In this document: positions 1 through 42,124 of the stretch, piece after piece
How positions within the stretch are numbered: position 1 is the first letter of the stretch
How the letters are laid out: each line of letters starts with the position of its first letter
Assembly: GCA_005778115.1 (NCBI GenBank)
Contig: SXKJ01000005.1
Span: 1 to 45,622 of the forward strand
Source of the DNA: Planctomyces sp.
GTDB lineage: Bacteria; Planctomycetota; Planctomycetia; Planctomycetales; Planctomycetaceae
DNA length: 45,622 nucleotides
Direction of reading: 5' to 3'
The notes under the pieces: generated by a model
The model's database searches: none
What the model was told of the DNA's origin: nothing
The model's input: only the letters and a program-made list of their open reading frames with translations
Position numbers and translations under genes: made by a program

Positions 1-1013
1 ACCAGCAGGTTGCCCAGATACTCCTCCGGCAGTCCGTCCGACTCGTAGGCCAGGATGCCGGAGGGAGCTTCGCCGGTCCCCGCGACCATCGGCAGCGTGC
101 CGGGAATCTCGCCGTTCCAGGCGGTGAAGGGGTGCAGTCCCTTGCGGCCGTTGCGGAAGCGGTAGCCGTAATCGCCTCCCGGAATCACATGCAACAGCCG
201 ACACGGCGGACGGCTGTCCGCGTCGTTGTCCACGGTGAAGAGCCGGCCGAACGCATCGAAGCAGCTCGCGTGCGGATTCCAAAACCCGGTCGCGATCTGG
301 CTCAGCTTCGAGCCATCCAGCCGGCAACGATAAATGTCCCCCCCCTCGCCGCCCCCGCTGAGCGTCGTGCCGTCCGAACCGATGATCTTGTAGTCGGCTC
401 CGAGGTTCTCGCCGAACCCGAAGTACATCCAGCCGAGCGCATCAATCGCAAACCCCGCCAGCCCGTTGTGCGGATAATCCCCCTTCGTGTCGAGATGCAC
501 GATCGACTCTTTGCGATCCGCTTTGTCGTCGCCGTCATCGTCGTGGAAGAGGAAGATTTCTCGGCGAGTGGCGATGTAAACGGAACTGAGCGGCACGGCG
601 CTAGCCGCCGGTGTCTTCGCGGAATCACCGGCTGTTTTTTTTGAATCACCGGCGGCTAGCGCCTTGCCGCTCACAGGGAACCAGATCGGCCTCACGACAA
701 CGCTCATCGAGAACTTCAGGCCGTCGGTGAAGACGACGATCTTGTCCGCCTTGCCGTCGCCGTCCGAGTCGCTCATCACGAGCACTCGGTCACTCGGATG
801 CCCCTTGTAGCCTTCGGGCGGGAAGTGCGTGTTACTCTCGATGGCGAACACTCGGCCCCGATGATCGACGTCGAGACCGGTCGGCGTGACGATCTGCGGA
901 TGCTCGGCGAAGAGTTCAATCTTCAACCGCGGGTCGAGCGACTTCGGCGGCTCTTCCGCCTGCGCGACGAAGTTGGTCATCAACATCACGAACAAGACCG
1001 AGTAGCGACGCAT
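1..1013 (-). CDS. PVC-type heme-binding beta-propeller protein, N-terminal part (runs off the window)
   Basis: Only the first ~337 residues are inside the window; the gene continues past base 1. It begins MRRYSVLFVMLMTNFVAQA, a short Sec-type signal peptide, so the product is exported. The following sequence has the planctomycete membrane-bound dehydrogenase/propeller pattern: 'LKIELFAEHPQIVTPTGLDV', aspartate-rich repeats such as SDSDGDGKADK and HDDDGDDKADRK, and GDYGYRF. It is a relative of the 1020-aa gene at 25225-28287, and full-length members end in HEAT repeats and a CxxCH cytochrome domain that would lie outside this window. Residues ~117-139 (bases 597-663) are encoded by a palindrome and look like a low-complexity insertion (ALAAGDSKKTAGDSAKTPAA). 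Substrate is unknown; family members are thought to act in polysaccharide or alcohol oxidation. Confidence 0.8.
   Translation of the reverse strand, partial: MRRYSVLFVMLMTNFVAQAEEPPKSLDPRLKIELFAEHPQIVTPTGLDVDHRGRVFAIESNTHFPPEGYKGHPSDRVLVMSDSDGDGKADKIVVFTDGLKFSMSVVVRPIWFPVSGKALAAGDSKKTAGDSAKTPAASAVPLSSVYIATRREIFLFHDDDGDDKADRKESIVHLDTKGDYPHNGLAGFAIDALGWMYFGFGENLGADYKIIGSDGTTLSGGGEGGDIYRCRLDGSKLSQIATGFWNPHASCFDAFGRLFTVDNDADSRPPCRLLHVIPGGDYGYRFRNGRKGLHPFTAWNGEIPGTLPMVAGTGEAPSGILAYESDGLPEEYLGNLL
597..663. repeat. Intragenic palindromic element (67 bp)
   Basis: A 17-nt arm (GGCGCTAGCCGCCGGTG on the gene strand) is mirrored perfectly at the other end. The interior has a second partial copy of GCCGGTGATTC. 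The element lies inside the heme-propeller gene without breaking its frame and encodes an Ala/Lys/Asp-rich stretch between two conserved-looking blocks. Confidence 0.75.
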
Positions 1014-1043
1014 AGCAGACTCCTCAGCAGACTTCGCGAGCAA

Positions 1044-1093
1044 GTAGTTCGGACGCCAACGTCCGAACGCCCGGACGTAGGCGTCCGGGCTAC
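1044..1093. repeat. GTAG...CTAC palindromic element in a divergent intergenic region
   Basis: The outer arms are GTAG-tt-CGGACGCC and GGCGTCCG-gg-CTAC. Two smaller hairpins are nested within: 1048-1067 (TTCGGACG/CGTCCGAA) and 1069-1090 (GCCCGGACG/CGTCCGGGC). It lies between the start of the minus-strand heme-propeller gene and the plus-strand dehydrogenase, so it could fall in either 5' UTR. Confidence 0.7.
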
Positions 1094-1222
1094 GCGAAGA
1101 TCGTCCGACAGCTTGATCCAAAAAGCCAGCGACTCGATAGCTGCCGTTTGGCGTGTGACACGATATGTTGTGGCCGACGTTTTCATCGTCCTCAACTCAT
1201 CACCCGAGACTCTCAACGCAAC

Positions 1223-2287
1223 ATGCCAACAACTCATCGCATCGCCGTCATCGCGGGTGACGGCATTGGCCCCGAAGTCATTCGCGAAGCCATTCGAGTC
1301 GCCGATGTGGCGGCTCCGAAGTCGGACGCTCGGTGCGAGTGGACTCACTTTCCGTGGGGGACCGACTACTACTTTCAAAACGGGCGGATGGCTCCGGCCG
1401 ATTACCTCGACACGCTGGCCGGGTTCGATGCGATCTTGCTGGGAGCGGTCGGGCATCCGAGCGTGCAGGATCACGTCACGCTCAACGGGTTGCTGTTGCC
1501 GATTCGGCGGCGGTTCGATCAGTGCGTCTGCTTGCGACCGGCGTACCTGTATCCCGGCGTCGAAAGCCCGCTGCGGAACAAGCCGGGAGGCAGCATCGAC
1601 ATGCTCGTCTTCCGTGAGAACACCGAAGGGGAATACGCCAACATCGGCGGCTTCCTGTATCGCGGGATGCCCGATGAGTCGGCGATTCAAACGAGCATGT
1701 TCACTCGCAAAGGCTGCGAACGCATCATCCGCGCGGCGTTCGAGAAAGCGGCGACTCGGCCGAAGCAGCGAGTCGCATCGATCACCAAAAGCAACGCTCA
1801 AGGCTACGGCATGGTCCTGTGGGACGAATGCTTCGCTCGCGTGGCCGCCGAGTTTCCCAACATCGCGACCGAATCGCTGCTGATCGACCGCGCCGTGATG
1901 GAATTCGTGCGCCGCCCCGAATCGTTCGACGTGGTCGTGGCCAGCAATTTATTTGGCGACATCCTGACCGACCTCTCGGCGATCATCGTCGGCAGCATGG
2001 GCCTCGCCGCCAGCGGCAACATCGACCCGACTCGCGGGTATCCCAGCATGTTCGAGCCGGTCCACGGTTCCGCTCCCGACATCACGGGAAAGGGCATCGC
2101 GAATCCGCTCGCGGCGATCTTGTCGGTCGCGATGATGTTTGAGCATCTGCTTCTCGACGTTGCGGCCGCGAGCATTCATCAAGCGGTGAAAGATTTGCTG
2201 GCATCGAACGGATTGCGAACACCGGACTTGGGCGGCAGCGGCACGACGGAGCAGGTCGGCATGGCGGTTCGTGAACGCGTTGCGTAG
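1223..2287 (+). CDS. Isocitrate/isopropylmalate dehydrogenase family protein, tartrate/D-malate dehydrogenase-like
   Basis: A 354-aa beta-decarboxylating dehydrogenase that would oxidise a 2-hydroxyacid with NAD(+) and release CO2. Visible landmarks are the N-terminal IAVIAGDGIGPEV, the substrate-arginine region LLLPIRRRFDQCVCLRP, VFRENTEGEYANIGG, the Lys/Asn segment SITKSNAQGYGMVLWDE, the metal-binding aspartates in SNLFGDILTDLSA, and the NAD-site motif EPVHGSAPDITGKGIANP. REN(T)EGEY and the absence of a LeuB-type signature fit tartrate dehydrogenase/decarboxylase or D-malate dehydrogenase (DmlA/TtuC) better than LeuB; the substrate cannot be fixed from sequence alone. The ATG at 1223 is chosen because the family motif starts seven residues later. 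Its TAG stop lies inside the palindrome at 2284-2368. A second family member, icd, is at 43535. Confidence 0.88.
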   Translation: MPTTHRIAVIAGDGIGPEVIREAIRVADVAAPKSDARCEWTHFPWGTDYYFQNGRMAPADYLDTLAGFDAILLGAVGHPSVQDHVTLNGLLLPIRRRFDQCVCLRPAYLYPGVESPLRNKPGGSIDMLVFRENTEGEYANIGGFLYRGMPDESAIQTSMFTRKGCERIIRAAFEKAATRPKQRVASITKSNAQGYGMVLWDECFARVAAEFPNIATESLLIDRAVMEFVRRPESFDVVVASNLFGDILTDLSAIIVGSMGLAASGNIDPTRGYPSMFEPVHGSAPDITGKGIANPLAAILSVAMMFEHLLLDVAAASIHQAVKDLLASNGLRTPDLGGSGTTEQVGMAVRERVA

Positions 2288-3906: not shown

Positions 3907-3968
3907 GTGGGAGTTCTCGTGAAGGTAAGAAAGTCGATGCCGAACAACGATCGCTGAAGAGAGTCGAT

Positions 3969-5784: not shown

Positions 5785-5870
5785 AAACGTAGGGTGGGAC
5801 GAGTCATCGAGACCCACCACAAGCCAGGATTGATCTGGTGGGTCTCGATGACTCGACCCACCCTACGTTT
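5785..5870. repeat. GTAGGGTGGG palindromic element in a divergent intergenic region
   Basis: Arms of 34 nt, beginning AAACGTAGGGTGGGACGAG, are near-perfect mirrors around an 18-nt loop. It sits between the start codons of the NDH-2-cNMP gene (-) and the small propeller gene (+). The arm sequence is clearly related to the element at 25126-25208, making these two copies of one family. Confidence 0.88.
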
Positions 5871-8867: not shown

Positions 8868-8925
8868 GCCATTTTACTCGTATGGTCTCGGAGAGAATGA
8901 GGCGTGATCGGAGAAAGGTCGTTAC

Positions 8926-12170: not shown

Positions 12171-12279
12171 CCCCACTGGGCTTGCCCCAGTGGCTCGCGG
12201 GCTTTTGCACTACTCGAATGATTGATCGGCAGCGGCGTAGTGCAAAGGCCAACGAGCCACCGGCACAAGGCCGGTGGAG
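12171..12279. repeat. CCCCACTGG-family palindromic element upstream of the DapA-like gene
   Basis: Arms of ~43 nt (left begins CCCCACTGGGCTTGCCCCAG) pair with about ten mismatches; the inner ends are GCACTAC and GTAGTGC. It ends ~30 nt upstream of the minus-strand start codon, so it is probably transcribed in that 5' UTR. The left arm is nearly identical to that of the element at 42028-42124, which holds the same position before another gene. Confidence 0.85.
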
Positions 12280-14153: not shown

Positions 14154-16058
14154 CTACGTCGCCATCCGCGTCGGCTCGGTCAGATACAGCATCAACACCG
14201 CGAGATCGGCCGGAGTGATGCCGCTGATCCGACTCGCTTGCCCGACGTGACGTGGGCGGACGCGAGTCAGCTTCTCCTTAGCTTCGGCGCGGAGTTGTGG
14301 GCAGGCATGGAAATCAAAGGCGTCTGGGATGCGAACGGTATCGACTTGTTCCTGCCGTTCGATCGTCGCCGTCTGCCGACGGATGTAGCCGGCGTACTTG
14401 GCTTCGATCGAGAGTTGCTTCGCGGCCAGAGCCGGCAGATTCAACGACCGCGCCTCTTCGCTGAACTCGCAGACGTCGGGCCATTCGGTCAATGGCCGGC
14501 GTAGCCACTCTTCGAGACTGTGCCCCTGATGAAACTTCTTGACGGCCAACTCGGAAGCCACCGCGATCGCGGCTTCGTGAGCTTCCCAGCGGCGCACCCG
14601 TTCGCCCGACGCCAGCCCGACGCGAGCACCAATCGGCGTCAGTCGCCGATCGGCATTGTCGTGGCGCAGCAGCAGGCGGTATTCGGCTCGCGAAGTAAAC
14701 ATACGGTAGGGCTCATCGACCCCTTTTGTCACGAGGTCGTCGATCATCACCCCCAGATACGCCTGGCTGCGGTCCAAAATCAGTGGCGGTTTATTAGCGA
14801 TCTTTAACGCCGCGTTGGCCCCGGCGAGCAGTCCCTGCCCGGCCGCTTCTTCATATCCGGTCGTCCCGTTGATCTGCCCCGCGAAATACAGCCCTTCGAC
14901 CCGCTTCGTTTCGAGCGTCGCGTGCAACTGCGTCGGCGGAGCGAAGTCGTACTCGACCGCGTAGCCATAGCGCATGATCTCGGCCCGTTCGAGGCCGGGG
15001 ATCAAATGCACCAACTCCTCCTGCACATCGCGCGGCAGGCTGGTCGAGATGCCGTTGCAGTAGTACTCGCAGGTGTGGCGGCCTTCCGGCTCTAAGAAGA
15101 TGTGGTGGGCGGTTTTGTCCGCGAACCGCACCACTTTGTCTTCAATGCTCGGACAGTAGCGGGGACCGGTCGATTGAATCTGGCCCGAATACATCGGAGC
15201 CCGATGCAGGTTAGCTCGGATCAGGTCGTGGACTCGCTCGTTCGTCTCCGTCAGATGGCAACACATCTGCGGCTGAGTGATCGCGTCGGTCAAGAACGAA
15301 AACGGCTGCGGCTCGGCGTCGCCCGGTTGCTCCTGGGTGACCGAGAAATCAATCGTGCGCCCATTGATCCGGCACGGCGTGCCCGTCTTGAATCGTCGCA
15401 GTTCAAAGCAGAGTTCCGTGAGGGTTTGAGACAATCCCGTGGTTGTCCCTTCGCCTGCTCGGCCACCGGACGCTTTGGCCTCGCCGGTGTGCATGATCGC
15501 TTGCAGGAACGTGCCAGTCGTGATGACGACCGCTTTGGCTCGGTAGCTCGCTCCCCCTTTGACGCGGACGGCGGTGATGGAGGCAGTGGGTAGTGGGCAG
15601 TGGGCAGTGGAAGAACTCTCCGATTGTTGCTTTTCACCACTGCCCACCGCCCACTGCCTACTGCCTACTTCCAGTCCCTCGACCACTTCTTGGCGAAGCG
15701 TCAGATTCTCCTGCTGCTCGACGCGCCACTTCATGGCGAACTGATACGCCTTCTTGTCGGCCTGAGCACGCGGGCTGTGCATCGCCGGCCCCTTGGTCTG
15801 ATTGAGCATCCGAAACTGGATTCCGGTCTCGTCGATGACCCGCCCCATCTCGCCGCCGAGCGCGTCGATCTCGCGAACGATCTGTCCTTTCGCGACGCCG
15901 CCGATGGCCGGATTGCAGCTCATTGCGGCGACCATGTCGCAGCTCATGGTCAGTAAAGCCGTCTTCGCCCCCAGCCGAGCCGCTGCCAACGCCGCTTCGC
16001 AGCCGGCGTGCCCGGCCCCGATCACCACCACATCAAAATCGTAGATCACGTCACTCAT
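14154..16058 (-). CDS. mnmG: tRNA uridine-5-carboxymethylaminomethyl modification enzyme MnmG (GidA)
   Basis: 634 aa from ATG 16058, the start that begins the family sequence ([33 protein letters not shown] motif GAGHAG). With MnmE it forms cmnm5U34 in tRNAs. Other signatures: [85 protein letters not shown] and the C-terminal [14 protein letters not shown]. Residues ~131-160 ([27 protein letters not shown]) are foreign to the family and correspond exactly to a palindromic repeat (15581-15666) inserted in frame between '[11 protein letters not shown]' and '[10 protein letters not shown]'. It diverges from the SGNH hydrolase gene. Confidence 0.96.
15581..15666. repeat. Intragenic GGGCAGT-rich palindromic element in mnmG
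   Basis: The left half is built of tandem GTGGGCA/GTGGGTA heptads (AGGCAGTGGGTAGTGGGCAG...). The right half is their imperfect reverse complement ending ACTGCCTACTGCCT. About 86 nt are inserted without disturbing the mnmG frame. Confidence 0.8.
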
Positions 16059-16089
16059 TACCGGCTCTCGCGACTGTCGTCGTTCAAAA

Positions 16090-16176
16090 GTAGCAGGCAC
16101 ACTCCGTGTGCCGTCCGCTTGGGGGTTTCCAAAAACCGGCGAACAATGGCGGCGGCACACGGAGTGTGCCTGCTAC
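16090..16176. repeat. GTAGCAGGCAC palindromic element between mnmG and the SGNH hydrolase
   Basis: Perfect 23-bp arms (GTAGCAGGCACACTCC... and its mirror ending CTAC) flank a 41-nt loop. It lies between two divergent start codons (16058 minus, 16214 plus), inside the region that should hold both promoters. Confidence 0.9.
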
Positions 16177-16213
16177 TATTTCGTTCGGGAATTCGAGGCG
16201 GGATCATATCGGC

Positions 16214-21556: not shown

Positions 21557-21690
21557 CGTGAAGCCGACGATGCCGAAGTGTGCCTCGAAGTGATCGTTCG
21601 CCGGAATGCTGAAGCGTGCTTCGTCGATTTCGATGAGCGTCTTTTGAATCTTCGCCCGCAGTTCGGTGCGGAGCTGACGTTGCTGCTCGA

Positions 21691-21767
21691 TTAGCCGGAA
21701 CGCGCTAGCGTCCGGTTTTTCGAGTCGGATTCGCGATCGGAACCGGACGCTAGCGCGTTCCGGCTAA
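21691..21767. repeat. 77-bp palindromic element interrupting a propeller gene
   Basis: TTAGCCGGAACGCGCTAGCG... and its mirror ...CGCTAGCGCGTTCCGGCTAA form ~27-bp perfect arms around a ~23-nt loop. The length is 77 nt, so it shifts the frame; its terminal TAA is the premature stop of the upstream part. Deleting exactly these bases restores ...ELRRQI-EQQRQLRTEL.... Confidence 0.92.
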
Positions 21768-22791
21768 TTTGTCGGCGCAGTTCCGCAACGAGCGGATCGA
21801 CGCGCGATGCGAACTCTGGCTTTGCGGCCTTCTGTTCCGGCGACAGCGCTTCGTAGTAATTGGTTGCCGCCGACCACAGCACTTTGCCGGTGTTCTTGTC
21901 GAGGCACAGCAACTCATCCGGTTCGGCCAGCACGAAGATGCGGTCGCCGACGAGGATTGGAGTGGACGTACTGCGAGCCGGAAGCTCGGTCATCCAGCGG
22001 ATGTTTTTCGTTTCATACGGCACGTTCGGCGGGTCCATGATCCGCAGATGGCAGCGCATGTCGGTGTGGCCGGCGATGCGTGGGCTGCTCAGCTTCAGCA
22101 GCAAGCGATTCCAACCCGGCTTGAGTTCCACGTCAAAGCGCGGCGACTCCTGATGCAGATGATTCAACTCCAGCTTGCTGAGGTTCGTGTAAAACCCCAA
22201 TCCCATCGCCCGCTTCGGCTGCCGATAGACTTCGCGGCCGTTGAGCCACGCCTTCAAGCCCTCGCCATGATCGACAACAACCCGCGCCGGCCCGCCGCGC
22301 GGTGAGAACAAATACGTGTGAGCGTACGCCAACTGGTTGATCTTGAATCCGACCGCCTTGCCGACATCCAGCCACGGCACCTCGGCCGTCCCAAACACCA
22401 TTGGATCATCCGCCGGTGCGGTGAGCGGCTTCCATTCATGTTCGGTGACTTTATCTCCGGCCGACGGCTCGATGGATGGCTCGCCGCTCAACGCCTCGTC
22501 ATCGAAGTTCTTTTCTGAATCGCCAACGGCAAACGGTCCAATGACCAGCCATTCGCGAATCAAGCCTTTCTCCACAACGGCGATTTCACTCACATCCACG
22601 CCGACTGGCCGACTCGCTCGACAGCGCAGTCCTTCGATCGCTCCGTGCGGAATCCGAAACCATTCGATCGGTGTCTTCGCCTCCGGCCACAGGCCGGTGC
22701 GATTACCTCGCCAACCGCTGGTCGGCTCCACCGCACTGCCCGGAGTCGCGATTGAGATCAGACAGCCGACCAGCACGAGAAATCGTCGCAT
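21691..22791 (-). pseudogene. PQQ-like beta-propeller gene, 5' part (truncated by palindrome)
   Basis: 366 aa from ATG 22791, which has an excellent ribosome site (GGGGAGG six nt upstream); the frame is open a little further upstream but without a site. Signal peptide MRRFLVLVGCLISIATPGSA, so exported. Then comes a planctomycete PQQ-propeller N-terminus (WRGNRTGLWPEAKTPIEW), a jelly-roll-like segment (VDHGEGLKAWLNGREVYRQPKRA, PGWNRLLLKLSS), and the first propeller blades (ILVGDRIFVLAEPDELLCLDKNTGKVLWSA). The last ~24 residues (SRNALASGSDRESDSKNRTLARSG) are translated palindrome. The frame then stops at TAA 21693-21691. Confidence 0.82.
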
Positions 22792-22867
22792 CGCGAACCT
22801 CCCCAAACGGACACGGTCATGACAGCCGATCTCACTCGCCGCATCATACTGCCGTGGCGGTGCTGCG

Positions 22868-22933
22868 CTGACTCTCCGAGCCGTGACGGATCGGTTAAAA
22901 GGTGCCGCAGAAATTCCCGACTCGGAGAGTCAG
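22868..22933. repeat. Palindromic element upstream of lpxK
   Basis: CTGACTCTCCGAG and CTCGGAGAGTCAG are perfect 13-bp arms about 18 nt before the lpxK start, separated by a 40-nt interior. Probably in the leader of lpxK. Confidence 0.7.
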
Positions 22934-22950
22934 GCGACGAAGGACCGACG

Positions 22951-24006
22951 ATGGAGCAGTTCGCCCGTGAAATGATGTCTGGCCGGAAACGCGGTCTTGC
23001 GGCGAGCCTGTTGCGCGCGGGGTTGTGGTCGGCACAGTGGCCGTATCGCGTCGGAGTCGGCTGCAAGAATCTGGCCTTTGACTTTCGGCTGCGAGAGCCG
23101 TTTGAAGTTGGCGTGCCGATCATCAGTGTGGGCAATCTCACGACCGGCGGAACCGGCAAGACGCCGGTCGTCGCGTTCCTGGCCAATTGGTTTCGTGACG
23201 CGGGGGCGAATGTCGGTCTGCTGAGCCGGGGATACAAGTCGCTCGACTCATTGGCCAACGACGAGAAGCTCGTGCTCGATCAGCTTTGTCCGGGAGTACC
23301 GCAGTGGCTCAACCCCGATCGAATTCTTTCGGCGAAGCGAGCGGTGGTGGATGGCTGCAATTTGCTGATCCTCGACGACGCCTTTCAGCATCGCCGAGTC
23401 CATCGTGATCTCGACATTGTGTTGATCGACGCCACGAACCCGTGGGGCTACGGGCATTGCCTGCCGCGCGGTTTGCTGCGTGAGCCGATCGCGAACATCG
23501 AACGAGCGGACTTGGTGATCATCACACGCGCCGACCAAGTGCCTGCGGAGGAACTTAACGCAATCCGCACGGAGTTGGTGCGGCACAACCAAGTTGGCAG
23601 CGTGATCGAAGTCTCGTTTCGGCCGAGCCAACTTCTCAGCAGTGCCGGCCAAACGAAACCGCTGGCCGACGTGGCCGGACAACGAGCTTTCGGCTTCTGC
23701 GGCATCGGGAACCCGGTGTCCTTCGAGCAGACGCTGCGGTTACTCGGCACGGAAGTCGTCGGCTTCGAGTCGTTTCCCGATCATCATCATTTCACGCCCG
23801 ACGATCTCGCGCGGCTCGGCGAGCAATCGAGGTCGACCAACGCCGACTTACTACTGACGACTCATAAAGACCTGGTGAAAATTCACGAGACTGAACTCGG
23901 TGATCGACCATTGTGGGCCGTGCAGATTGGGACCGAGATCGTTCGCGGCGCACCGATCCTCGAAGCCCGGTTGTGGTCGATTCTGGAACATGTCCCAAAG
24001 TCGTAG
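22951..24006 (+). CDS. lpxK: Tetraacyldisaccharide 4'-kinase (lipid A biosynthesis)
   Basis: A 351-aa LpxK, which phosphorylates the 4' position of the lipid A disaccharide precursor at the inner membrane. Signatures: the Walker A loop VGNLTTGGTGKTPVV near residue 55, NVGLLSRGYKS, the family motif LILDDAFQHRRVHRDLDIVLID with the catalytic DD, GHCLPRGLLREP, ADLVIITRAD, and FPDHHHFTPDDLARL. ATG 22951 is supported by AAGGA 8 nt upstream; the open frame further upstream reads through a palindrome. An Arg-rich N-terminal amphipathic segment fits membrane attachment. Its TAG stop is inside the palindrome at 24003-24084. Its presence implies outer-membrane lipid A in this organism. Confidence 0.95.
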   Translation: MEQFAREMMSGRKRGLAASLLRAGLWSAQWPYRVGVGCKNLAFDFRLREPFEVGVPIISVGNLTTGGTGKTPVVAFLANWFRDAGANVGLLSRGYKSLDSLANDEKLVLDQLCPGVPQWLNPDRILSAKRAVVDGCNLLILDDAFQHRRVHRDLDIVLIDATNPWGYGHCLPRGLLREPIANIERADLVIITRADQVPAEELNAIRTELVRHNQVGSVIEVSFRPSQLLSSAGQTKPLADVAGQRAFGFCGIGNPVSFEQTLRLLGTEVVGFESFPDHHHFTPDDLARLGEQSRSTNADLLLTTHKDLVKIHETELGDRPLWAVQIGTEIVRGAPILEARLWSILEHVPKS

Positions 24007-24084
24007 GTCAGGCTTTCCAGCCTGACCCGAACGCTTCGATTTGCGCTCAATCCTATTCGGGGCAGCCTGGAAAGGCTGACCTAC
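24003..24084. repeat. GTAGGTCAGGC palindromic element at the end of lpxK
   Basis: Near-perfect ~22-bp arms (GTAGGTCAGGCTTTCCAG... mirrored to ...CTGGAAAGGCTGACCTAC). The TAG of its first GTAG is the lpxK stop codon. The element ends 43 nt before the next gene on the same strand. Confidence 0.88.
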
Positions 24085-24126: not shown

Positions 24127-25104
24127 ATGACTCAACCCGCCTTTCCGCCATGCCCTGCTGTGCAAGCGACCGCTCGCGTCGTCGAGCAGGAGCAGATGGC
24201 CCGCAACACGTACCGGCTGCGACTGCACTGTCCTGAAATCGCCAGCCGTATTGTCCCCGGCCAGTTTTTTATGGTCCGTCCGGCGCGTGGGAGCGATCCG
24301 TTGCTCGGTCGGCCGTTCGCTCTGTTCGATACCTACGATGACGAGCGCGGACAGCCCGTCGGATTCGATTTCGGCTATGTGACGGTCGGCAAACTCACCG
24401 GACTGATGCCAAGCTGGAAAGTCGGTGACGAAGTCTCGGTTTGGGGCCCGCTCGGCAACGGGTTCCCGATCGTGCCGGCGGGAACGAAACACTTGATGTG
24501 TGTAGCGGGCGGCATCGGACAGACTCCGTTCCTGGCGGTCGCGCGCGAGTTGTTGACGTCGCGGCGCTACGGAACGCCAAACCGCGCTCGGCGCGGGTCT
24601 CCTGACCCCGCTGCTGGAATGGACCGAAGGTCTCCAGGATTCGGCAATGTTTCGGGAGACCTACAGTCGGCTGAAGCGGCGGGGTCAGGAGACCCGCGCC
24701 GAGCGCTACCGAAGGTCTCGCTGTGCTACGGAGCACGCTCGGCTGATTACCTCGCTGGGCTGGATCAGTTCGCGATCGACGGACTCGACGTGCGACTGGC
24801 AACCGATGACGGCAGCCGAGGTCATCACGGGTTCGTCACCGAATTGCTCAAGCAATCGCTCGCCTCCGACTCTCCGCCGGACCTCATTTACTGCTGTGGC
24901 CCGGAGCCGATGATGCACGCGGTGCAAAAGATCGCGACGGCGGCGAATGTCGCGTGCTGGCTCTCGCTGGAGACGCCGATGGCCTGTGGCATTGGCATCT
25001 GTTTCAGTTGTGTCGCGAAAATCCAACAGGACGACGGCGAGTGGGACTACCGCCGGACGTGTCTGGAAGGTCCGATCTTTTCGGCGGCGAAAGTCGTGTT
25101 TTAG
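24127..25104 (+). CDS. pyrK: Dihydroorotate dehydrogenase electron transfer subunit-like ferredoxin reductase (PyrK family)
   Basis: 325 aa. It has an FAD/NAD ferredoxin-reductase fold with a 2Fe-2S cluster: flavin segment PGQFFMVRP ... [38 protein letters not shown], pyridine-nucleotide segment [48 protein letters not shown], and the C-terminal cluster CGIGICFSC ... C (Cys x4 Cys x2 Cys x~14 Cys). This is the PyrK subunit that passes electrons to NAD(+) in type 1B dihydroorotate oxidation; no pyrD is adjacent. Codons 153-193 are an exact 123-nt palindrome insertion ([12 protein letters not shown]...AGSGDPRRA) that keeps the frame. Without it the length (~284 aa) would be closer to the family's. 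Confidence 0.87.
24583..24705. repeat. Intragenic 123-bp palindromic element in pyrK
   Basis: Perfect 27-bp arms (24583-24609 and 24679-24705; left begins CGCTCGGCGCGGGTCTCC). A second, inner palindrome lies around GGTCTCC...GGGAGACC. The length is exactly 41 codons and the boundaries coincide with codon boundaries. Confidence 0.92.
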
Positions 25105-25125: not shown

Positions 25126-25208
25126 CGTAGGGTGGGTCGAGTCATCGAGACCCACCGGAAACATCAACCCCGCTGGGGGGTCTCGATGACTCGACCCACC
25201 CAACGTTT
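25126..25208. repeat. GTAGGGTGGG palindromic element (second family copy)
   Basis: Arms CGTAGGGTGGGTCGAGTCAT... and their mirror ...GACTCGACCCACCCAACG are near perfect. It shares arm sequence with the element at 5785-5870. It lies between pyrK and the 1020-aa heme-propeller gene, ending 16 nt before the latter's start. Confidence 0.88.
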
Positions 25209-28287: not shown

Positions 28288-28356
28288 GTAGGATGGGCAC
28301 TCTTGCCTGTCCCCTGTCGCGGTAAAAAGACGGACGGGCAAGAATGCCCATCCTAC
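28288..28356. repeat. GTAGGATGGGC palindromic element filling a convergent gene gap
   Basis: The ~20-bp arms (GTAGGATGGGCACTCTTGCC / GGCAAGAATGCCCATCCTAC) have one mismatch and a ~29-nt loop. The TGA of the heme-propeller gene ends at 28287 and the TGA of the DUF1552 gene starts at 28358. The element therefore occupies the whole gap and is well placed as a bidirectional terminator. Confidence 0.92.
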
Positions 28357-30666: not shown

Positions 30667-32361
30667 TCAGTTATCGGCGAGTTTGTTGAGTTCATCGTCG
30701 GGCATTGAGGACCAAAGGAAGTAGCTCAACCGCGCGGCGAATTCGTGGTCTTGTAGCGCACGCGGCTCGCGTGCGTTGGCGTCGGGTTTGGTCTTGCTCG
30801 ATGTGGAGGTCGGTCGCACGCGAGCCGCGTGCGCCACAGGTTCCGCCAAATACAAGAAGTGTGGCGAGGCCATTGCTGCGATGAGCGGGGTCTTGATTGC
30901 TTGGACGAACGACGGCGAGTCGGCTCGTACGAGGTCGAATAGCTTCAGCTTTTCGTCGATCTCGGCGGCCGTCACCGGGCGGCGGTAGGCCGAACGCAGG
31001 AAGCGGGCGATCAACGTCTTTGCGGTTTCGCGCTCTTTCGCTTTCGACGGGAGCGTGTCACCGAGCAAGCGGCGATGACTCGGCGGTGGCCAGGATTCGT
31101 GGATCGGGCCTTCGAGTTCAAACCAATCGACGTACAACTCTGGCCGAGCAAATACGTCGTGTCCCTGAAACCAAAAGTTCTCAAGCACTCGCGGAATCGG
31201 GTAGGCGTATTCGATCGTCAGGCCGGCTTGCTCGGTCGTGAAGCGGGCACAGACTTCGTATTCGCGCGGCTTTTCGAGCGGCGCATCGACGTCGAACTCG
31301 GCGAGCACTTTCGGTTGGCCGCCGAGATTCTGAATCAGCTTCAGTCGGGGCGAGCCGTAGTCGTACATCCGGTCGGTCGCGAAGTGTTTGAGGTCGCGTT
31401 CCATCTGCTCGCGGTGATACTTCTCTGCCTTGGGGTTCTCCTGCATCTGCTTGTCGAAGCGGTTCTGCAACGCTTTGCGAGCGGACTCGACGACGGCATC
31501 TCGCTTCGGGACAAAGCCCGCCGCGCGGATGCGGATGATGTAGTCTCCCTCGTGCTTGAGGCCGTAACCGCGAGCGTTCAGGTGCTTGTCCCAGTTGTCG
31601 TGGTGCAACACTTTGAAGCCGTCTTTGACCGGGTTGTTGCCGCCGTTCACGATCACGTTCTGCTTGTCGTAGACCTTGCGGTTCGAGTTGTTGTCGCCGC
31701 TGTCGATCTCGAATCGCCATTTGATTGCCGGCGGCTGATCCCCTTCGACAAGTGTTCGATCCAGAATCTTCCGAGCCGCATCGAGGTAGAGTTCGGTGAG
31801 CAGCGGCGACATCGTCAGGGCAGAGCCGTTGTTGTCGAAGCCTCCCGATGCCGGATCAAGCGGGAATGGAGCGACATCGAAGTCGATTCCGATCAAATCG
31901 CGGATCGTGCTGCGGTACTCATCCCGGTTGAGCCGTCGCAGCACGATCTGCCCGTCGCGGCGGACCAGTTCGGCACGAACCATCTGCTCGGTGATCCAAT
32001 CGACGACCTTCGCGACTTCCTCCGGTTTCGGTTGCGGTTCTCCTTCCGGGGGCATCTCGTGGCTGTTGAGGACGTTGACGACCTCGCTCCATTTTTCTTT
32101 GGAGGCCGGATCGACGAACTCGTTCTTGAGATGCTGATCGACGCGAAAGGTCCCCTCCTGCTTCGCCGGCCCATGGCAGCGAACGCAATGTGTCTTCACG
32201 AATGGGGCGACGATTGCCTGGAAGCCAGCCTGATCGGTGGAACTCGGCGATCGCTCCTGAGTTCGACTGGGGATCGTCGCCAACAGAATCGGTAGCGCGA
32301 GAATTAGAAGGCGGATCACTGATGGATTCTGGTGGTTAATTTGATTTCGTCTCATCTTCAT
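30667..32361 (-). CDS. DUF1592-type gene, N-terminal part with cytochrome-c-like domain (ends at in-frame TGA)
   Basis: 564 aa. Signal segment (VIRLLILALPILLATIPSRT), then a PSCyt1-type heme site C59-V-R-C-H63 (THCVRCHGPAKQEGTFRVD). DUF1587: VLRRLNRDEYRSTIRDLIGIDFDVAPFPLDPASGGFDNNG. DUF1595: IARFLRSAYRRPVTAAEIDEKL. Start of DUF1592: RLSYFLWSSMPDDELNKLADN. It ends at TGA where relatives have Gly (LADxGKLRD), i.e. GGA to TGA. Residues ~508-536 (RVRPTSTSSKTKPDANAREPRA) are encoded by the palindrome at 30753-30837. ATG 32361 or 32355 could be the start. With the downstream part the gene would be 880 codons, the normal full architecture. Confidence 0.83.
   Translation of the reverse strand: MKMRRNQINHQNPSVIRLLILALPILLATIPSRTQERSPSSTDQAGFQAIVAPFVKTHCVRCHGPAKQEGTFRVDQHLKNEFVDPASKEKWSEVVNVLNSHEMPPEGEPQPKPEEVAKVVDWITEQMVRAELVRRDGQIVLRRLNRDEYRSTIRDLIGIDFDVAPFPLDPASGGFDNNGSALTMSPLLTELYLDAARKILDRTLVEGDQPPAIKWRFEIDSGDNNSNRKVYDKQNVIVNGGNNPVKDGFKVLHHDNWDKHLNARGYGLKHEGDYIIRIRAAGFVPKRDAVVESARKALQNRFDKQMQENPKAEKYHREQMERDLKHFATDRMYDYGSPRLKLIQNLGGQPKVLAEFDVDAPLEKPREYEVCARFTTEQAGLTIEYAYPIPRVLENFWFQGHDVFARPELYVDWFELEGPIHESWPPPSHRRLLGDTLPSKAKERETAKTLIARFLRSAYRRPVTAAEIDEKLKLFDLVRADSPSFVQAIKTPLIAAMASPHFLYLAEPVAHAARVRPTSTSSKTKPDANAREPRALQDHEFAARLSYFLWSSMPDDELNKLADN
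30753..30837. repeat. Intragenic GCGCACGCGG palindromic element in the DUF1592-type gene
   Basis: Perfect 20-bp arms (GCGCACGCGGCTCGCGTGCG and mirror, 30756-30775 and 30815-30834) with a 39-nt interior; the outer ends read TGTAG... and ...CCACA. The frame is preserved across it. Confidence 0.9.
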
Positions 32362-32375: not shown

Positions 32376-32458
32376 GAAGGAGCCCGACGAATCGAAGGAG
32401 ACGACGAATGCTGCAACTGCCCTTATTCGTCGTCTCCTTCGATTCGTCGGGCTCCTTC
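32376..32458. repeat. 34-bp-arm palindrome between the CotH and DUF1592-type genes
   Basis: Perfect 34-bp arms (32376-32409 and 32425-32458, left begins GAAGGAGCCCGACGAATCG) with a 15-nt loop. It fills most of the gap between the CotH stop (32478) and the DUF1592-type start (32361), on the same transcript direction. Confidence 0.95.
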
Positions 32459-34926: not shown

Positions 34927-34995
34927 AGCACGACCCGCCAGCGAGTGGTCTGGGTGCATCCACTCGGTAAGTACCACTCGCTTGCGCGTCGTGCT
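34927..34995. repeat. AGCACGAC palindromic element
   Basis: AGCACGAC-cc-GC-c-AGCGAGTGG pairs with CCACTCGCT-t-GCG-c-GTCGTGCT, ~20 paired bases with small bulges and a ~23-nt interior. It lies between the CBS gene and the end of the PilX-like gene (both minus strand). Confidence 0.8.
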
Positions 34996-36846: not shown

Positions 36847-37060
36847 ACGTCAGCGCCATGCTCATACTGATGGCGATCATCACGACCACCAGCGATACAC
36901 CACGCCGATCTGAGATCCGTCGCAGGGCGCTAACCCCGGTTTGTGTTTCGAGAACCGGGGCTAACGCCCTGCGGCTGATTCGATCTACGAAAACAAACCT
37001 AGCACATTTCAGCTGATCCGAATGCGACCACCGGGGGGCTGACGCCGCCCCGCTCGCCAA
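36773..37060 (-). pseudogene. PilX-like pseudopilin, N-terminal fragment
   Basis: This frame supplies the missing N-terminus of the gene above: RISDRRGVSLVVVMIAISMSMALTYAALSSQSRGVQLRQNVNRREMARQ, a typical prepilin/PilX segment (basic leader, cleavage near R-G/V, one hydrophobic helix, then NRREMARQ, normally followed by AxxAG). The family-like sequence stops at ARQ (~36773), and the other frame takes over with GSDPSGTTSY. Some 40 codons expected between them are missing. The upstream start is unclear: TTG 37060 is only the limit of the open frame, and part of the leader (RRALAPVLETQTGVSALRR) is translated palindrome. Confidence 0.6.
36921..36973. repeat. CGCAGGGCG palindromic element in the PilX-like leader
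   Basis: The 21-nt arms (CGCAGGGCGCTAACCCCGG... / mirror) have two mismatches and an 11-nt loop. It encodes part of the region just before the prepilin peptidase site. It belongs to the same family as 39721-39789. Confidence 0.85.
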
Positions 37061-37759: not shown

Positions 37760-38723
37760 AGACGTACCTCAGACTCGCCGAACCAAAGAAAGGAATCGCC
37801 GAAACCGTATCTGAAGCGCGGACGATGCCATCTGGTTCAACCTGCAATTCAATCTGCAACGTCGCCTGTCGCACTCCCGAGCGGTTGCCGAAGGTGCCTT
37901 GTGGCCAACTCAACTGCATCCAGGCCGTGGTCTGAGGCGCGGCTGATGCCAACTCGCTGTCGCTGGGAGTCAGCGAGAGTACGAAACGCGCATTGCCAAT
38001 CGACTGCGTGACGCTGCTGGTCGGTGTCGAGGAACTTGGTGAACTCGACGGTCCTGGCGGAAGCGAAGGTCCAAACGGAGAACCCGTTCCGCTCGCGGGC
38101 GGGAACACGGGAGCTGAGACCGCACTGCTGGATGTGCTCAACGAGGACTGACGCAGTCGATCACACAACGGAATCTTCTCGGCCGCGGTGGAGGTCAGCA
38201 GATTGGTGACAGTCGTCGGCAAATCGCTGGCGGCGAAATCAAACGACGCTGTCTGACCGGGGAACGCGACCTCAATCAATTGACCGGGGTTTTTGGAGTC
38301 CCAAGTGTAGATCAACAACTCGCCGACGTTCGGCAGACGATTCAGCACGCCATTCGCGGACATGCCCCCTGACCGGCCGCCGGTCCACAGCACCAGCACA
38401 TCCGGAATCTGATTCGTCCCCACCGGCCGAGACACGACAGTCATCCCAACACGAGTTGGCTGCCCAGCCAGGTCATACACGCCGGTCTGAGAAATCATGT
38501 ACTCGATGCGTTCAATCGCCGCGCGGGCTTGCAGGTCGGAATCCTCGACACCCTTTGTATAGGACCACGCCGAGTTCACCGCGTTCGACATACCCGCCAG
38601 CACGACCGACATCATGCTCAGGATCGTCAGCGAGATCAGCAGCTCGGCGAGAGTCATGCCGCGATGACTAATACGGAGTGCGGAGTGTCGAGTGCGGAGT
38701 GATGAACCCACTCCGCACTCCAC
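37749..38723 (-). CDS. PulJ/GspJ-type pseudopilin
   Basis: 324 aa. Prepilin segment HRGMTLAELLISLTILSMMSVVLAGMSNAVNSAW, with cleavage G^M and the conserved Glu at +5. It is followed by YTKGVEDSDLQARAAIERIEYMISQ, the usual J-type pseudopilin continuation, VLWTGGRSGG, and a long Ser/Pro-rich linker (PVFPPASGTGSPFGPSLPPG...). The ~22-residue leader before HRGM (ECGVGSSLRTRHSALRIS) comes from the palindrome at 38674-38748, and the frame starts at GTG 38723 inside it. The gene overlaps the end of the upstream PilV-like gene by ~70 nt. Confidence 0.85.
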   Translation of the reverse strand: MECGVGSSLRTRHSALRISHRGMTLAELLISLTILSMMSVVLAGMSNAVNSAWSYTKGVEDSDLQARAAIERIEYMISQTGVYDLAGQPTRVGMTVVSRPVGTNQIPDVLVLWTGGRSGGMSANGVLNRLPNVGELLIYTWDSKNPGQLIEVAFPGQTASFDFAASDLPTTVTNLLTSTAAEKIPLCDRLRQSSLSTSSSAVSAPVFPPASGTGSPFGPSLPPGPSSSPSSSTPTSSVTQSIGNARFVLSLTPSDSELASAAPQTTAWMQLSWPQGTFGNRSGVRQATLQIELQVEPDGIVRASDTVSAIPFFGSASLRYVYEP

Positions 38724-39421
38724 ACTCCGAATTCCGAATTCCGAATTGACGACGTCTGCGCATGGTCTCCCACTCCTTCAGGGGCCGGTGACACGGAGGA
38801 GAAGACTCGCACGACTTGGGCGACAGTCCGCGTGGACTTATTCGCGGTGTAAGCCACGAACACGGTGACTCGGCGATGCGGCGTGTGTTGTGTGACCACG
38901 GTCCAGCCGGTTGGGTTCGGCTGTAATCGCTCGATTAGCACCGACCGCGTAAAGCGACCGACAAAGTTCGGTGCCGCTGCGAGTTCGGCCGTCCGGCTAC
39001 CGGCCTTGCCAAGCGTCATTTCCATGTAAGCCGCTGCGGCAATTGCACCGTCATCATTGCCCAGGACTTCTCCCGCTTTGGTACGGGGTGGGCATTCGCT
39101 GAACTTGTCGTAGTCATCAATCGTCGTGAACCAACTCCGCAGCGGAATTGGCGAAACAATGCCGGCTGTTCCCGTGGGAAACTTCGAGGCGGCGATTTCG
39201 TTCATCAATTGCTCGGCCATGCCTTGCCCGACCGAACGATAAATCGAATCGTTGCTGGATTGGACTGCTCCGGCGACCGAGTTCAACAAGGCCGCGCCCG
39301 CCAGTGACATCACCGCCAGAGCGATCATCGACTCGGCATATGTGAAACCTCGGCGCAGAGGAGTGCTCGGCGCGATCAAATGTCGCGAGCAATCACCACG
39401 AACTTCGCCGAGAGTTGTCAC
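38654..39421 (-). CDS. PilV/GspI-type pseudopilin
   Basis: 255 aa, first gene of the operon. Prepilin segment LRRGFTYAESMIALAVMSLAGAALLNSVAGAVQSS, cleavage G^F, Glu at +5, with a normal basic leader and no palindrome. The following region (AEQLMNEIAASKFPTGTAG) is typical of PilV/GspI relatives. The last ~25 residues (SSIRNSEFGVWSAEWVHHSALDTPHSVLV) are translated from the palindrome at 38674-38748, which also encodes the leader of the next protein. This operon probably builds a pseudopilus tip or related secretion or attachment structure in the envelope; no ATPase or peptidase gene is present here. Confidence 0.85.
   Translation of the reverse strand: MTTLGEVRGDCSRHLIAPSTPLRRGFTYAESMIALAVMSLAGAALLNSVAGAVQSSNDSIYRSVGQGMAEQLMNEIAASKFPTGTAGIVSPIPLRSWFTTIDDYDKFSECPPRTKAGEVLGNDDGAIAAAAYMEMTLGKAGSRTAELAAAPNFVGRFTRSVLIERLQPNPTGWTVVTQHTPHRRVTVFVAYTANKSTRTVAQVVRVFSSVSPAPEGVGDHAQTSSIRNSEFGVWSAEWVHHSALDTPHSVLVIAA
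38674..38748. repeat. CGGAGTG palindromic element at the PilV/PulJ junction
   Basis: CGGAGTGCGGAGTGTCGAG... pairs with ...CACTCCGCACTCCACACTCCG, followed by tandem AATTCCG. It is read in two frames at once, as the end of the PilV-like protein and the leader of the PulJ-like protein. Confidence 0.8.
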
Positions 39422-39720
39422 GATCTCCGCTCCGTTTCAATGGCAGCGCATGAAAAAAGACGCGGCATGTTCCCCTCGAAGCTCCCAGCTTCCCATGCCG
39501 CGCCCGTAAAGTCGTTATCGTCCGTCCCAGAACCAGATGGGCGTCAGGGGCCGAACAGTCACCAGAAACCTAGGTCACGTCCTCAGACTGTCAAATCGCG
39601 GCCGGCATCTTTTGTCCGAACGCGGCAATCCTCGATCGTTGTCGGCCCCATCCAGCTTGTCTGGATGGACCGAACGATGGTGAGCTAGAGCAATCTCAGA
39701 GCAAAGAATTTGGGTTGAGC

Positions 39721-39789
39721 AAATCAGCCGCAGGGCGCTAGCCCCGGTTCGAGCGAGATTAACCGGGACTAGCGTCCTGCGGCTGATTT
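39721..39789. repeat. CGCAGGGCG palindromic element (second family copy)
   Basis: The 29-nt arms (AAATCAGCCGCAGGGCGC... / ...GCGTCCTGCGGCTGATTT) pair with two or three mismatches around an 11-nt loop. The core CGCAGGGCGCTA.CCCCGG is shared with 36921-36973. Confidence 0.88.
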
Positions 39790-39836
39790 AGGGAGCCCCA
39801 ATTCTTGGTTGTGACACAGCACTATAGGCAGACCAT

Positions 39837-39961: not shown

Positions 39962-39996
39962 CATCAGGATCAATCAATCAACGAGGGCGAAGTACG

Positions 39997-41022
39997 ATGA
40001 AGGCTGTGCAATTCGATCAGTTCGGTGAACCCGCGGATGTGCTGCGTGTGCGGGATGTCGAGCCGCCTCAGCCCAAGGCTGGCGAGCTTCTCGTGAGGAT
40101 GTTGCTCAGTCCGGCCAATCCCTCGGACTTAATGACGACCCGCGGGGTGTATGGCAAACTGCCGAAGCTCCCTTGCACGCCAGGGTACGAAGGAGTCGGC
40201 ATCGTCGAAGCCAGCGGCGGCGGATTGCTCGGCAAGCTGCTGGTCGGCAAACGCGTCGCCTTGCTCAACGGCATCAACGGGAATTGGCAAGAGCTGACGA
40301 CGGTCGGCGCGAAACAAGCCGTGCCGTTGCCGAAGTCGCTACCGTCCGAACAAGGCGCGACGTTCTTCGTGAATCCGACAACCGCATTCGCAATGACTCA
40401 GCGAGTGCTCGCCGTGCCGAAGGGAGATTGGTTGATCCAAACGGCGGCCGCATCGGAGCTCGGCAAGATGGTCGTGCGGCTGGGACAGCGATTTGGTTTC
40501 AAGACGCTCAACGTCGTCCGTCGCGCCGAGCAAGCGGCCGCCTTGAAATCGTTGGGCGCGGAAGCGGTCGTCGTATTTGATCCCGCGCAGCATTCGGTCG
40601 ACGACTTGCGAAACGAAGTGCGGCATGTGGCAGGGGATCGTGGAGTGCGTTTCGCAATTGATCCCGTCGGTGGAGCAACGGGCTCGGCCGTCGTGAAATG
40701 CTTGGCACCTGGCGGCCGCATGTTGGTCTACGGAACACTGTCGCCAGAACCCATGAGTTTCTCGCCGCGCGATTTGATGACTCCAGGAGCAACCATCGCG
40801 GGCTTTTGGTTGGCTCGCTGGCTGCCGCAGCAAGGCTTGCTCGCCAAGATCAAACTGATCCGCACCGTCTCGCGATTGATTCAGGAGGGGGTGCTGACAT
40901 CACAGATCGGCGAAGTTTTTCCGATGGATCAGATTGCCGATGCCGTCCGCGCCGCGGAAGCGCCCGGGCGAACGGGCAAAGTGCTGTTGCGATTGGGCGA
41001 TTTTAAACACGACCGCCCGTAG
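39997..41022 (+). CDS. Zinc-free MDR oxidoreductase, trans-2-enoyl-CoA reductase-like
   Basis: 341 aa from ATG 39997, where the family sequence begins (MKAVQFDQFGEPADVLRVRDVEPPQPKAGELLVRMLLSPANPSDL). A medium-chain reductase: TPGYEGVGIVEASGGG, NPTTAFAMTQRVL, the nucleotide-binding turn WLIQTAAASELGKMVVRLGQRFGFKTLNVVRR, GGRMLVYGTLS. Catalytic-zinc ligands are absent. The order ANPSDL...G-YG-LP..PG-EGVG and FFVNPTTA resemble mitochondrial-type enoyl thioester reductase (MECR/ETR1), which reduces enoyl-ACP/CoA with NADPH; quinone reductase is the alternative. Its stop is the TAG of the GTAG that begins the palindrome at 41019. Confidence 0.85.
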   Translation: MKAVQFDQFGEPADVLRVRDVEPPQPKAGELLVRMLLSPANPSDLMTTRGVYGKLPKLPCTPGYEGVGIVEASGGGLLGKLLVGKRVALLNGINGNWQELTTVGAKQAVPLPKSLPSEQGATFFVNPTTAFAMTQRVLAVPKGDWLIQTAAASELGKMVVRLGQRFGFKTLNVVRRAEQAAALKSLGAEAVVVFDPAQHSVDDLRNEVRHVAGDRGVRFAIDPVGGATGSAVVKCLAPGGRMLVYGTLSPEPMSFSPRDLMTPGATIAGFWLARWLPQQGLLAKIKLIRTVSRLIQEGVLTSQIGEVFPMDQIADAVRAAEAPGRTGKVLLRLGDFKHDRP

Positions 41023-41078
41023 TGACCCGATTTATCGGGTCTTGATCGCTCGTTCGACCCCATAAATGGGGTCACGAC
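41019..41078. repeat. GTAGTGACCC palindromic element
   Basis: GTAGTGACCC and GGGGTCACGAC bracket two inner hairpins (GACCCGAT-TT-ATCGGGTC and GACCCCAT-AA-ATGGGGTC). It lies between convergent genes (stops at 41022 and 41087) and supplies the plus-strand TAG stop. Probable terminator. Confidence 0.82.
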
Positions 41079-41086
41079 GAGCGCGG

Positions 41087-42010
41087 TCAGTCGTCGTAGC
41101 GATTCGGACTCCAGCCTTGTGCGACATCGCAGAGCGTTTTCAACGTCGCGTGATCGACGGCGCAGGCGACGATGCGTGGCAGGCGCAGCATGTTGGCTCG
41201 ACCGTCCAGCCACATTTCGCGGAAGTGGACCGGCTCGCCGGTATCGGTCCAGATGGCGTCCCCTCCCAGGATGCGAGCGATGTGCAGTGAGACCGGGAAG
41301 TCGTAGATGTTCGGCGAGTGAATCAGGCTGCCACCGAATTCGCCGGTTGCGAGTAGCGGGTAGATGCTGCCTGGCATGTCGTCGGGAGCGACTCCTTGCA
41401 GGCCGGCAGCGGTGACTGCCTCAGCACGTTCGCGGTCGCGCTGTTGGAAGCCGATGAGGTAGATCTGTTTTGACTGTGGCCGAGTTGCCGGAACGATCGG
41501 TGTCAGACCATCGAGCACCGCACGAGCCCGTTGGCTGGGGTCATCGGCCCCGACGACGATGCGAGAACCAATCGCCTCGAACCAGGTGCCGTGCTCACCG
41601 GTCTCCGGCACGAAGACCAGGGAGTAATGCAGCGTCTGCCGATCTCGCAGGTGCAGCATGACTGCGTAGCCGTTGCCGGTGTGGTCGCGATACTGCTTCG
41701 TGCCGTCGATCGGATCGAGCGCGATGGTCAGCTCGCCATCGGATGCGAAGTGTCCCATGTCGCCGTTCTCTTCTTCCGCCTCGATGCGACATTGCCGAAA
41801 CAGCGGCGAACGGTCACGCAGTGCGGAGATGACCAGCTCCTGCACCGTCAGGTCCGCGAGTGTCAGGGCATCGGTCGCCGCGCTGCCGGACGTCTTGCCC
41901 GACAACGCGATGTTGAACTTGCGCAGTTGTCGAGCAACGCCTCCTGCCCAGCGCAAAACCTCTGGCATGTGAGTCGCCAACGCTTCGGCCACTTCGCGAA
42001 CTGCGGTCAT
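41087..42010 (-). CDS. Inositol monophosphatase-family phosphatase (CysQ/IMPase-like)
   Basis: 307 aa from ATG 42010; the open frame upstream runs into a palindrome and is not used. Family metal-site motifs: Glu in RIEAEEENGDM, the hallmark IALDPIDGTKQY (D-P-I-D-G-T), and the distal acidic region LIHSPNIYDFPVSLHIARILGGDAIWTDTGE in place of W(D)xAAG. The substrate-side lysine region 'SGKTSGSAATDALTLADLTVQE' is the usual K..GS.VT.AD segment. It probably removes a phosphate from an inositol, nucleotide (PAP) or sugar phosphate. The altered WDxAAG motif (IYDFPVS) makes the exact activity uncertain. Confidence 0.85.
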   Translation of the reverse strand: MTAVREVAEALATHMPEVLRWAGGVARQLRKFNIALSGKTSGSAATDALTLADLTVQELVISALRDRSPLFRQCRIEAEEENGDMGHFASDGELTIALDPIDGTKQYRDHTGNGYAVMLHLRDRQTLHYSLVFVPETGEHGTWFEAIGSRIVVGADDPSQRARAVLDGLTPIVPATRPQSKQIYLIGFQQRDRERAEAVTAAGLQGVAPDDMPGSIYPLLATGEFGGSLIHSPNIYDFPVSLHIARILGGDAIWTDTGEPVHFREMWLDGRANMLRLPRIVACAVDHATLKTLCDVAQGWSPNRYDD

Positions 42011-42027
42011 GAGAACCTGTCCTTTCA

Positions 42028-42124
42028 CCCCACTGGCCTTGCGCCAGTGACTCGCGGGCTTTTGCACTACTCTTCGACCATTGGTGCAGAAGCCCACGAG
42101 CCACTGAGGCAAGCTCAGTGGGGG
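42028..42124. repeat. CCCCACTGG-family palindromic element upstream of the IMPase gene
   Basis: The left arm CCCCACTGGCCTTGCGCCAG... continues GACTCGCGGGCTTTTGCAC and pairs with GTGCAGAAGCCCACGAGCCACTG...CAGTGGGG. It starts 17 nt upstream of the minus-strand start codon. The left arm is nearly the same as in 12171-12279. Confidence 0.87.

Follow-up and report, generated by a model that had tools for sequence, protein, structure and literature searches.

A large, mixed population of palindromes of probable REPIN type and candidate partner transposases in a planctomycete genome

The stretch of 45,622 nt from position 1 of contig SXKJ01000005.1 of Planctomyces sp. (GenBank assembly GCA_005778115.1; the whole stretch is hereafter called the window) is densely populated by palindromic elements, which raises the question of what these elements are and how they might spread. 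An initial annotation made from the sequence alone had counted about 25 of them, one per 1.8 kb. With a strict finder (+1 per arm match, −2 per mismatch; cut-off of 14 in the window and 15 in the genome sample), 18 non-overlapping palindromes with arms of 21–41 nt were found in the window, all of which also reached a score of 15, while a looser finder returned 23 pairs. The elements themselves were thus real and the density was one per 2.5 kb; the earlier number was slightly high, because even the looser list includes overlapping or weak pairs. A sample of 60 other contigs (730,907 bases, about a tenth of the 7.43-Mb genome) contained 214 palindromes with a score of at least 15, or one per 3.4 kb. 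A density no higher than that of shuffled sequence had been named beforehand as a possible refutation; simulated sequence yielded no palindromes at all, either for the window (three second-order Markov runs) or for the genome sample (one second-order and one fourth-order run).

Collectively, the 232 palindromes of window and sample fell into 75 clusters, the biggest with 58 members and 46 with a single one. The arms of 16 of the 18 window palindromes had further matches in the 60 control contigs, the exceptions being the elements at 15581 and 16089 (elements are named by their start position in the window), and the three recurring families proposed initially (5785/25126, 12173/42028 and 36921/39721) were recovered. 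Palindromic elements accounted for approximately 1.0 of the 5.0 kb of non-coding DNA in the window, i.e. about a fifth.

Most of these palindromes are very probably REPINs, that is, inverted pairs of a short repetitive extragenic palindromic (REP) hairpin. The genome's own REP-associated tyrosine transposases (RAYTs), which are Y1/HUH enzymes, would mobilise them in trans. By analogy with other systems (cutting in vitro is covered in PMC8266576), a RAYT would recognise the foot and hairpin on single-stranded DNA, cut beside the hairpin and paste the doublet elsewhere. Copies would survive where they do little harm, namely at stop codons, in the limited space between genes and, when in frame, in the loops or linkers of a few genes. 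The unusual variety of arm sequences would follow from the coexistence of several RAYT lineages, each paired with a REP family of its own.

The anatomy of the elements is consistent with this reading. The usual plan consisted of two inverted hairpins separated by a short spacer, the outer foot frequently carrying GTAG, and the inverted doublet of REP hairpins was the majority form in the window. An inner hairpin (score of at least 7) was present within 31% of 464 arms, compared with 2.4% of shuffled arms. The first description of the elements gave long arms, a short loop and, often, GTAG and CTAC at the ends; GTAG was seen by eye near an arm end in 9 of 18 palindromes: at the outer end in seven (5785, 16089, 24003, 25126, 28288, 30752 and 41014) and at the inner end in two (12173 and, on a single arm only, 42028). 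A group with GCTA loops (587, 21690, 36921 and 39721) lacked the GTAG foot. Three elements did not fit the plan, namely 15581 and 38670, with 7-bp tandem arms, and 32376, with direct repeats in its perfect 34-bp arms; their inner-hairpin scores were low (2–3 in 15581 and 32376, 3 and 6 in 38670).

None of the window palindromes encodes a gene of its own, and candidate partners were located elsewhere in the genome and in its genus (12 genomes: the source genome, G000, and congeners G001–G011; loci carry L numbers). The Y1 transposase domain PF01797 had 16 matches in the source genome and was matched in 11 of the 12 genomes. The clearest of these genes, L016, is a RAYT as judged by sequence similarity: its product scored 184.1 bits against NF047646 (REP_Tyr_transpos, cut-off 80) and resembles the TnpA_REP structure 4er8 (E = 1e-41). 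One family A REP lies upstream of L016 and a family A doublet downstream, which are the repeats of elements 5785 and 25126. The early suggestion that the palindromes, if mobile, are non-autonomous and REP- or MITE-like (miniature inverted-repeat transposable element), and that a RAYT or TnpA_REP-like gene should be sought, was borne out. In a scan of 10 Y1 proteins with NF047646, L012 scored 80.0, right at the cut-off, and the remaining eight, other than L016, were below it or unmatched.

Arms of a single window family bracketed each of the Y1 genes L016 (family A), L012 and L203 (B), L206 (F), L204 (K) and L342 (C) from both sides, which locates a flanking-gene partner for five families and hence for 6 of 18 window palindromes at the strict threshold. 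For comparison, 4 of 5000 random 600-bp pseudo-genes had the same window arm on both sides. Family F arms also occurred beside L013 and L015. Below the strict threshold, doublets approximately 73% alike to 12173 over 71–78 nt flanked Y1 gene L201 (G004) on both sides; counting this looser family H match (12173 and 42028), a partner was located for 8 of 18.

Orthologous sites were then read in the eleven congeners by alignment with fixed thresholds, and 16 of the 18 sites had at least one orthologue. Among 95 site-by-genome comparisons, the site was empty in 29, held a member of the same family in 14 and a palindrome of another family in 27, and was other or unclassified in 25; the elements therefore turn over, and the empty sites that the initial annotation had proposed looking for in relatives do exist. 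For instance, the same 111 bp were missing at 16089 in six congeners. Extra DNA was also observed at this site (window 16073–16190) in G002 (685 bp) and G010 (621 bp). At 8890, a GTAG element of G010 appeared by eye to be nested inside a decayed copy of a palindrome carried by G004 (the G004 copy was unmarked by the palindrome finder), and at 24003 genomes G004 and G009 kept, again by eye, a remnant resembling the family seen in G003, G005, G006 and G007, abutting another element.

Targeted replacement of one element by another was considered as a general rule and rejected. Fifty site-family events occupied 26 sites, against 26.7 (standard deviation 2.5) predicted by random placement in non-coding DNA and 45.3 by uniform placement over the entire window; shared intergenic sites thus need no targeting, because the scarcity of non-coding space predicts the sharing. 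Inside genes, 10 events fell in 7 sites (the gene call at 43411 being uncertain), which is more sharing than uniform placement in coding DNA would give (P = 0.0008) and is explained equally well by tolerant linkers. The placement test used a fixed family-linking score and a gene list trimmed and joined by hand, and its events are not independent because the congeners are related.

Elements occurred both between and within genes, as had been stated at the outset. Four palindromes lay in coding DNA: 15581, 24584 and 30752 in Pfam-supported genes, and 587 in a minus-strand open frame; 12173 and 42028 were in-gene by open reading frame (ORF) call, yet upstream of the conserved domain. At the four coding sites, all 28 of 28 congener length differences were divisible by three, compared with 37 of 67 at the remaining sites (zero differences counted as multiples of three). 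Element 587 joined the coding set after its differences had been seen, and without it the count was 22 of 22; its minus-strand frame was open over window positions 1–960 and across the site in six of six congeners. In the mnmG product, residues 141–165, at the site of 15581, had no counterpart in the solved MnmG structure 3cp8 and nearly none in 2zxh. At 24584, five of seven congeners were 105 bp shorter (three proteins of 325 aa, five of 290 aa), and the extra residues of the pyrK-family product fell in a stretch not aligning to 1ep3. MnmG- and PyrK-family genes carry stretches written by palindromic elements. The TAG stop of the LpxK-family gene at 22819–24006 comes from the GTAG of element 24003.

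Table 1. Palindromic elements of the window (window coordinates, no strand assigned to the elements)
Position	Element	Family and motif	Location	Remarks
587..673	hairpins, no GTAG foot	F, TGAGCGGCAAGGCGCTAGCCGCC	minus-strand frame open over 1–960	6/6 congener length differences multiples of three
5785..5870	REP doublet	A, GTAGGGTGGGTCGAGTCATCGAGACCCACC	intergenic	family flanks RAYT L016
12173..12277	outer and inner hairpin	H, outer CCACTGG..., inner GTAGTGCAAAAG	upstream of DHDPS-family gene	
15581..15666	palindrome, 7-bp tandem arms	GGCAGTG-like units	in frame inside mnmG/gidA, minus strand	GIDA domain
16089..16177	REP doublet	C, GTAGCAGGCACACTCCGTGTGCC		site empty in six congeners; Y1 gene L342 (G006) has family arms on either side
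21690..21768	palindrome	ATTAGCCGGAACGCGCTAGCGTCCGG	spans final codons of ORF 21691–22806 (minus)	
24003..24084	REP doublet	B, GTAGGTCAGGCTTTCCAGCCTGACC		Y1 genes L012 and L203 have family arms on either side
24584..24706	palindrome	I, GCGCTCGGCGCGGGTCTCCTGACCCCGC	in frame inside pyrK-family gene 24127–25104	
25126..25205	REP doublet	A	intergenic	
28288..28356	REP doublet	D, GTAGGATGGGCACTCTTGCCCGTCC	between convergent genes	
30752..30838	REP doublet	E, GTAGCGCACGCGGCTCGCGTGCG	in frame between PSD5 and PSD4 domains, minus-strand gene	
32376..32458	perfect 34-bp arms with direct repeats	J, CGACGAAT ×2		inner-hairpin score 3; like terminal inverted repeats
34927..34995	palindrome	K, AGCACGACGCGCAAGCGAGTGGT		Y1 gene L204 (G010) has family arms on either side
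36921..36973	palindrome	G, CAGCCGCAGGGCGCTAGCCCCGG		
38670..38740	palindrome, 7-bp tandem arms	GGAGTGC-like units		19/25 positions repeat at lag 7; clusters with L068:6096–6173
39686..39824	pair (39721–39789) inside longer conserved element, ~140 bp	G		
41014..41083	REP doublet	L, CGTAGTGACCC...GGGTC	between convergent genes	
42028..42123	palindrome	H	upstream of inositol-monophosphatase-family gene	

The ~140-bp element at 39686–39824 matched at least 12 other places in the genome over 119–147 bases, beyond the core hairpin pair, and family I was matched in each of the 12 genomes. Proteins encoded in the window include PSD and Planctomycete cytochrome C domains, and this content, like the closest named relatives of the RAYT, points to a planctomycete. 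The PSD-domain gene at 30667–32361 has a stop after 28 residues of PSD4, with the same frame open beyond it, which reflects either a disrupted gene or a sequence error. At the end of the window, positions 45452–45622 matched (97–99%) stretches of contigs C385, C258 and C422 that lie at the contig start or close to it, and this repeat may have broken the assembly.

The source genome contained 143 family A REP units with at most three mismatches (units counted singly, so that one doublet gives two), 83 of them exact when counted from the unit listing, and a reversed-pattern control gave none. Relatives of L016 were present in G004 and G001 (two genes, 64–65%), in G002 (59%, truncated) and in G003 (48%). 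The REPs beside the G004 and G001 relatives had the same foot and stem base (GTAGGGTGGG...CCCACC) with a different loop, and REPs with this stem and another loop also stood on the one readable side of the truncated G002 gene.

Several observations weigh against the REPIN/RAYT interpretation. At the strict threshold, 12 of 18 window palindromes lacked a Y1 gene flanked by the same arms (10 of 18 counting family H), this set including both tandem-arm palindromes and 32376, and by scripted count outer-end GTAG was present in 63 of the 232 palindromes. No duplication or motif at the target could be established (by eye, empty site 16089, the one site inspected, showed no duplication), transposition itself was not seen, and the differences between congeners may reflect gain, loss or both. 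Family A copy number was poorly tracked by the presence of a cognate RAYT: G006 (60 units), G007 (42), G010 (25) and G009 (21) had no close RAYT, G002 had 91 units with its truncated gene, and G004 and G001 had 9 and 0 units despite their 64–65% relatives, while the G003 relative had no such REPs beside it. The G006 count may be inflated by mixed bins, because its contig C341 shares REP coordinates (2557, 10195 and 10242) with contig C112 of the source genome, which suggests that one contig was binned into two genomes. In favour of the interpretation, the number of Y1 genes correlated with palindrome density across the 12 genomes (Spearman 0.63, p = 0.027), but genome size (0.53, p = 0.075) and relatedness are confounding factors, and one of the genomes (G008) contributed only 13.7 kb; G011, without any Y1 match, nevertheless carried palindromes at 0.08–0.16 per kb.

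The REPIN/RAYT interpretation also leaves elements 15581 and 38670 unexplained and, with less certainty, 32376. Palindromes with 7-bp tandem arms were found at 15581–15666, 38670–38740 and L068:6096–6173, and in the 38670-site segments of G007 (C88) and G010 (C178), with a heptamer unit that differed from place to place and repeated less exactly in the 38670 arm than in the others. A best repeat lag of 7 or 14 with identity of at least 0.78 was recorded for 12 of 422 arms, compared with 0 of 4220 shuffled arms (2 at other lags). At the mnmG slot the window carries the heptamer palindrome, and G007 and G010 each have a REP doublet; other congeners have short repeats there that looked tandem by eye and were not called as palindromes by the finder. 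All length differences at this slot were multiples of three. It is possible, though rather unlikely, that tandem-arm palindromes form a separate class arising de novo in slots also used by REPINs, in which case palindrome birth could be followed at the mnmG slot. That the palindromes as a whole arose in place, each through template switching or inverted duplication and without any transposase, seems improbable: the locus-specific tandem arms of 15581, 38670 and a few others would suit such an origin, but the recurrence of 16 of 18 arms in the control contigs and the exact copies of family A units do not, so that local formation is likely at most for this minority.

The palindromes could also be regarded as transcription terminators or mRNA 3′ hairpins made by the host, kept by selection and immobile. 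The hairpins are long and GC-rich, 28288 and 41014 have the convergent setting expected of terminators, and a passage on coli and S. maltophilia in PMC3686654 was counted in favour. However, the 141 intergenic palindromes among the 232 comprised 93 between tandem, 26 between convergent and 22 between divergent genes, while these settings account for 62%, 20% and 18% of intergenic bases; the convergent class was thus not in excess (about 28 expected by intergenic length). This test left out 20 palindromes at edges and 71 in called genes, and the in-gene count of 71 of 212 non-edge palindromes is an upper bound because long ORFs include upstream DNA, as at 12173 and 42028. In-gene copies, empty sites, differing families at one site and flanked Y1 genes would all be unexpected of terminators, an explanation which we consider very unlikely.

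A further origin, as classical MITEs dependent on a DDE transposase and bounded by terminal inverted repeats (TIRs) and target duplications, is scarcely probable. The size and non-coding nature of the elements and the perfect arms of 32376 would fit, but wherever a partner was located, in a search that covered Y1 genes, the flanked gene was of Y1/HUH type, and no duplication was seen by eye at 16089. Family J, to which 32376 belongs, had many copies in G004, G002 and G010 and no partner among the 100 loci with a located Y1 gene (102 given, some places twice); that its partner is a TIRYT is only a guess. Direct-repeat or TIR-like ends, rather than hairpins, were observed at Y1 genes L010 (G000:C194), L211 (G002:C127) and L177 (G005:C167), which look TIRYT-like by eye.

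Rickettsia palindromic elements, which are palindromes inserted within genes, had been named initially as the nearest analogue of the window elements. The likeness of in-gene, in-frame copies stands; here, however, most copies are extragenic and there is a cognate transposase gene, and REPIN/REP-RAYT systems are closer because this genome also contains the REP-associated transposase gene L016 between copies of the very repeats found in the window. REPINs are defined in PMC3116915 as REP doublets forming hairpins, with RAYTs, in Pseudomonas fluorescens. They share with our elements the inverted doublet unit, random extragenic placement, RAYTs near cognate REPs and several families per genome; what differs is the host, a planctomycete genus, the large number of families, the in-frame copies within a few genes and the lack of a GTAG foot in some families.

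The initial annotation knew of no description of this set in planctomycetes. The families appear to be new in the literature searched, but REPs and RAYT-like genes of the planctomycete R. baltica have already been published (PMC3733652). That paper treats GTAG- or CGTC-tagged REPs, RAYTs and TIRYTs and names RPE-4, RPE-6 and RPE-1; it places GTAG REPs in the PVC group and, for R. baltica, reports several families along with numerous Y1 genes that have repeats at their flanks. It also describes REP dimers (HH and TT), intragenic REPs, TAG stops from GTAG feet and differing REPs at about the same recB site in two Xanthomonas species, all of which, like the flanked Y1 genes, are paralleled here. 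According to PMC6006769, TnpA_Y1 class 3 occurs mainly in planctomycetes, acidobacteria and proteobacteria and has atypical flanking hairpins, which can be high-copy, with a CnGA foot. Y1 gene L014 (G000:C136), which has by eye a Y----Q motif and doublets on both sides, resembles this class, but its repeats start with CGTACCGCGACC instead of CnGA. The L016 relatives of G000, G001, G002 and G004, beside REP variants with a common stem and a changed loop, recall the orthoswitch of REPs around orthologous RAYTs reported in PMC3686654.

In this comparison, the window elements are most probably a large mixed REPIN/RAYT population, with apparently new families of a known kind. Although the kind of system is already known, the genus combines many REP families and several located partner transposases with 12 genomes in which occupancy, turnover and nesting can be read at shared sites, and provides a good comparative system for changes in RAYT/REP specificity.

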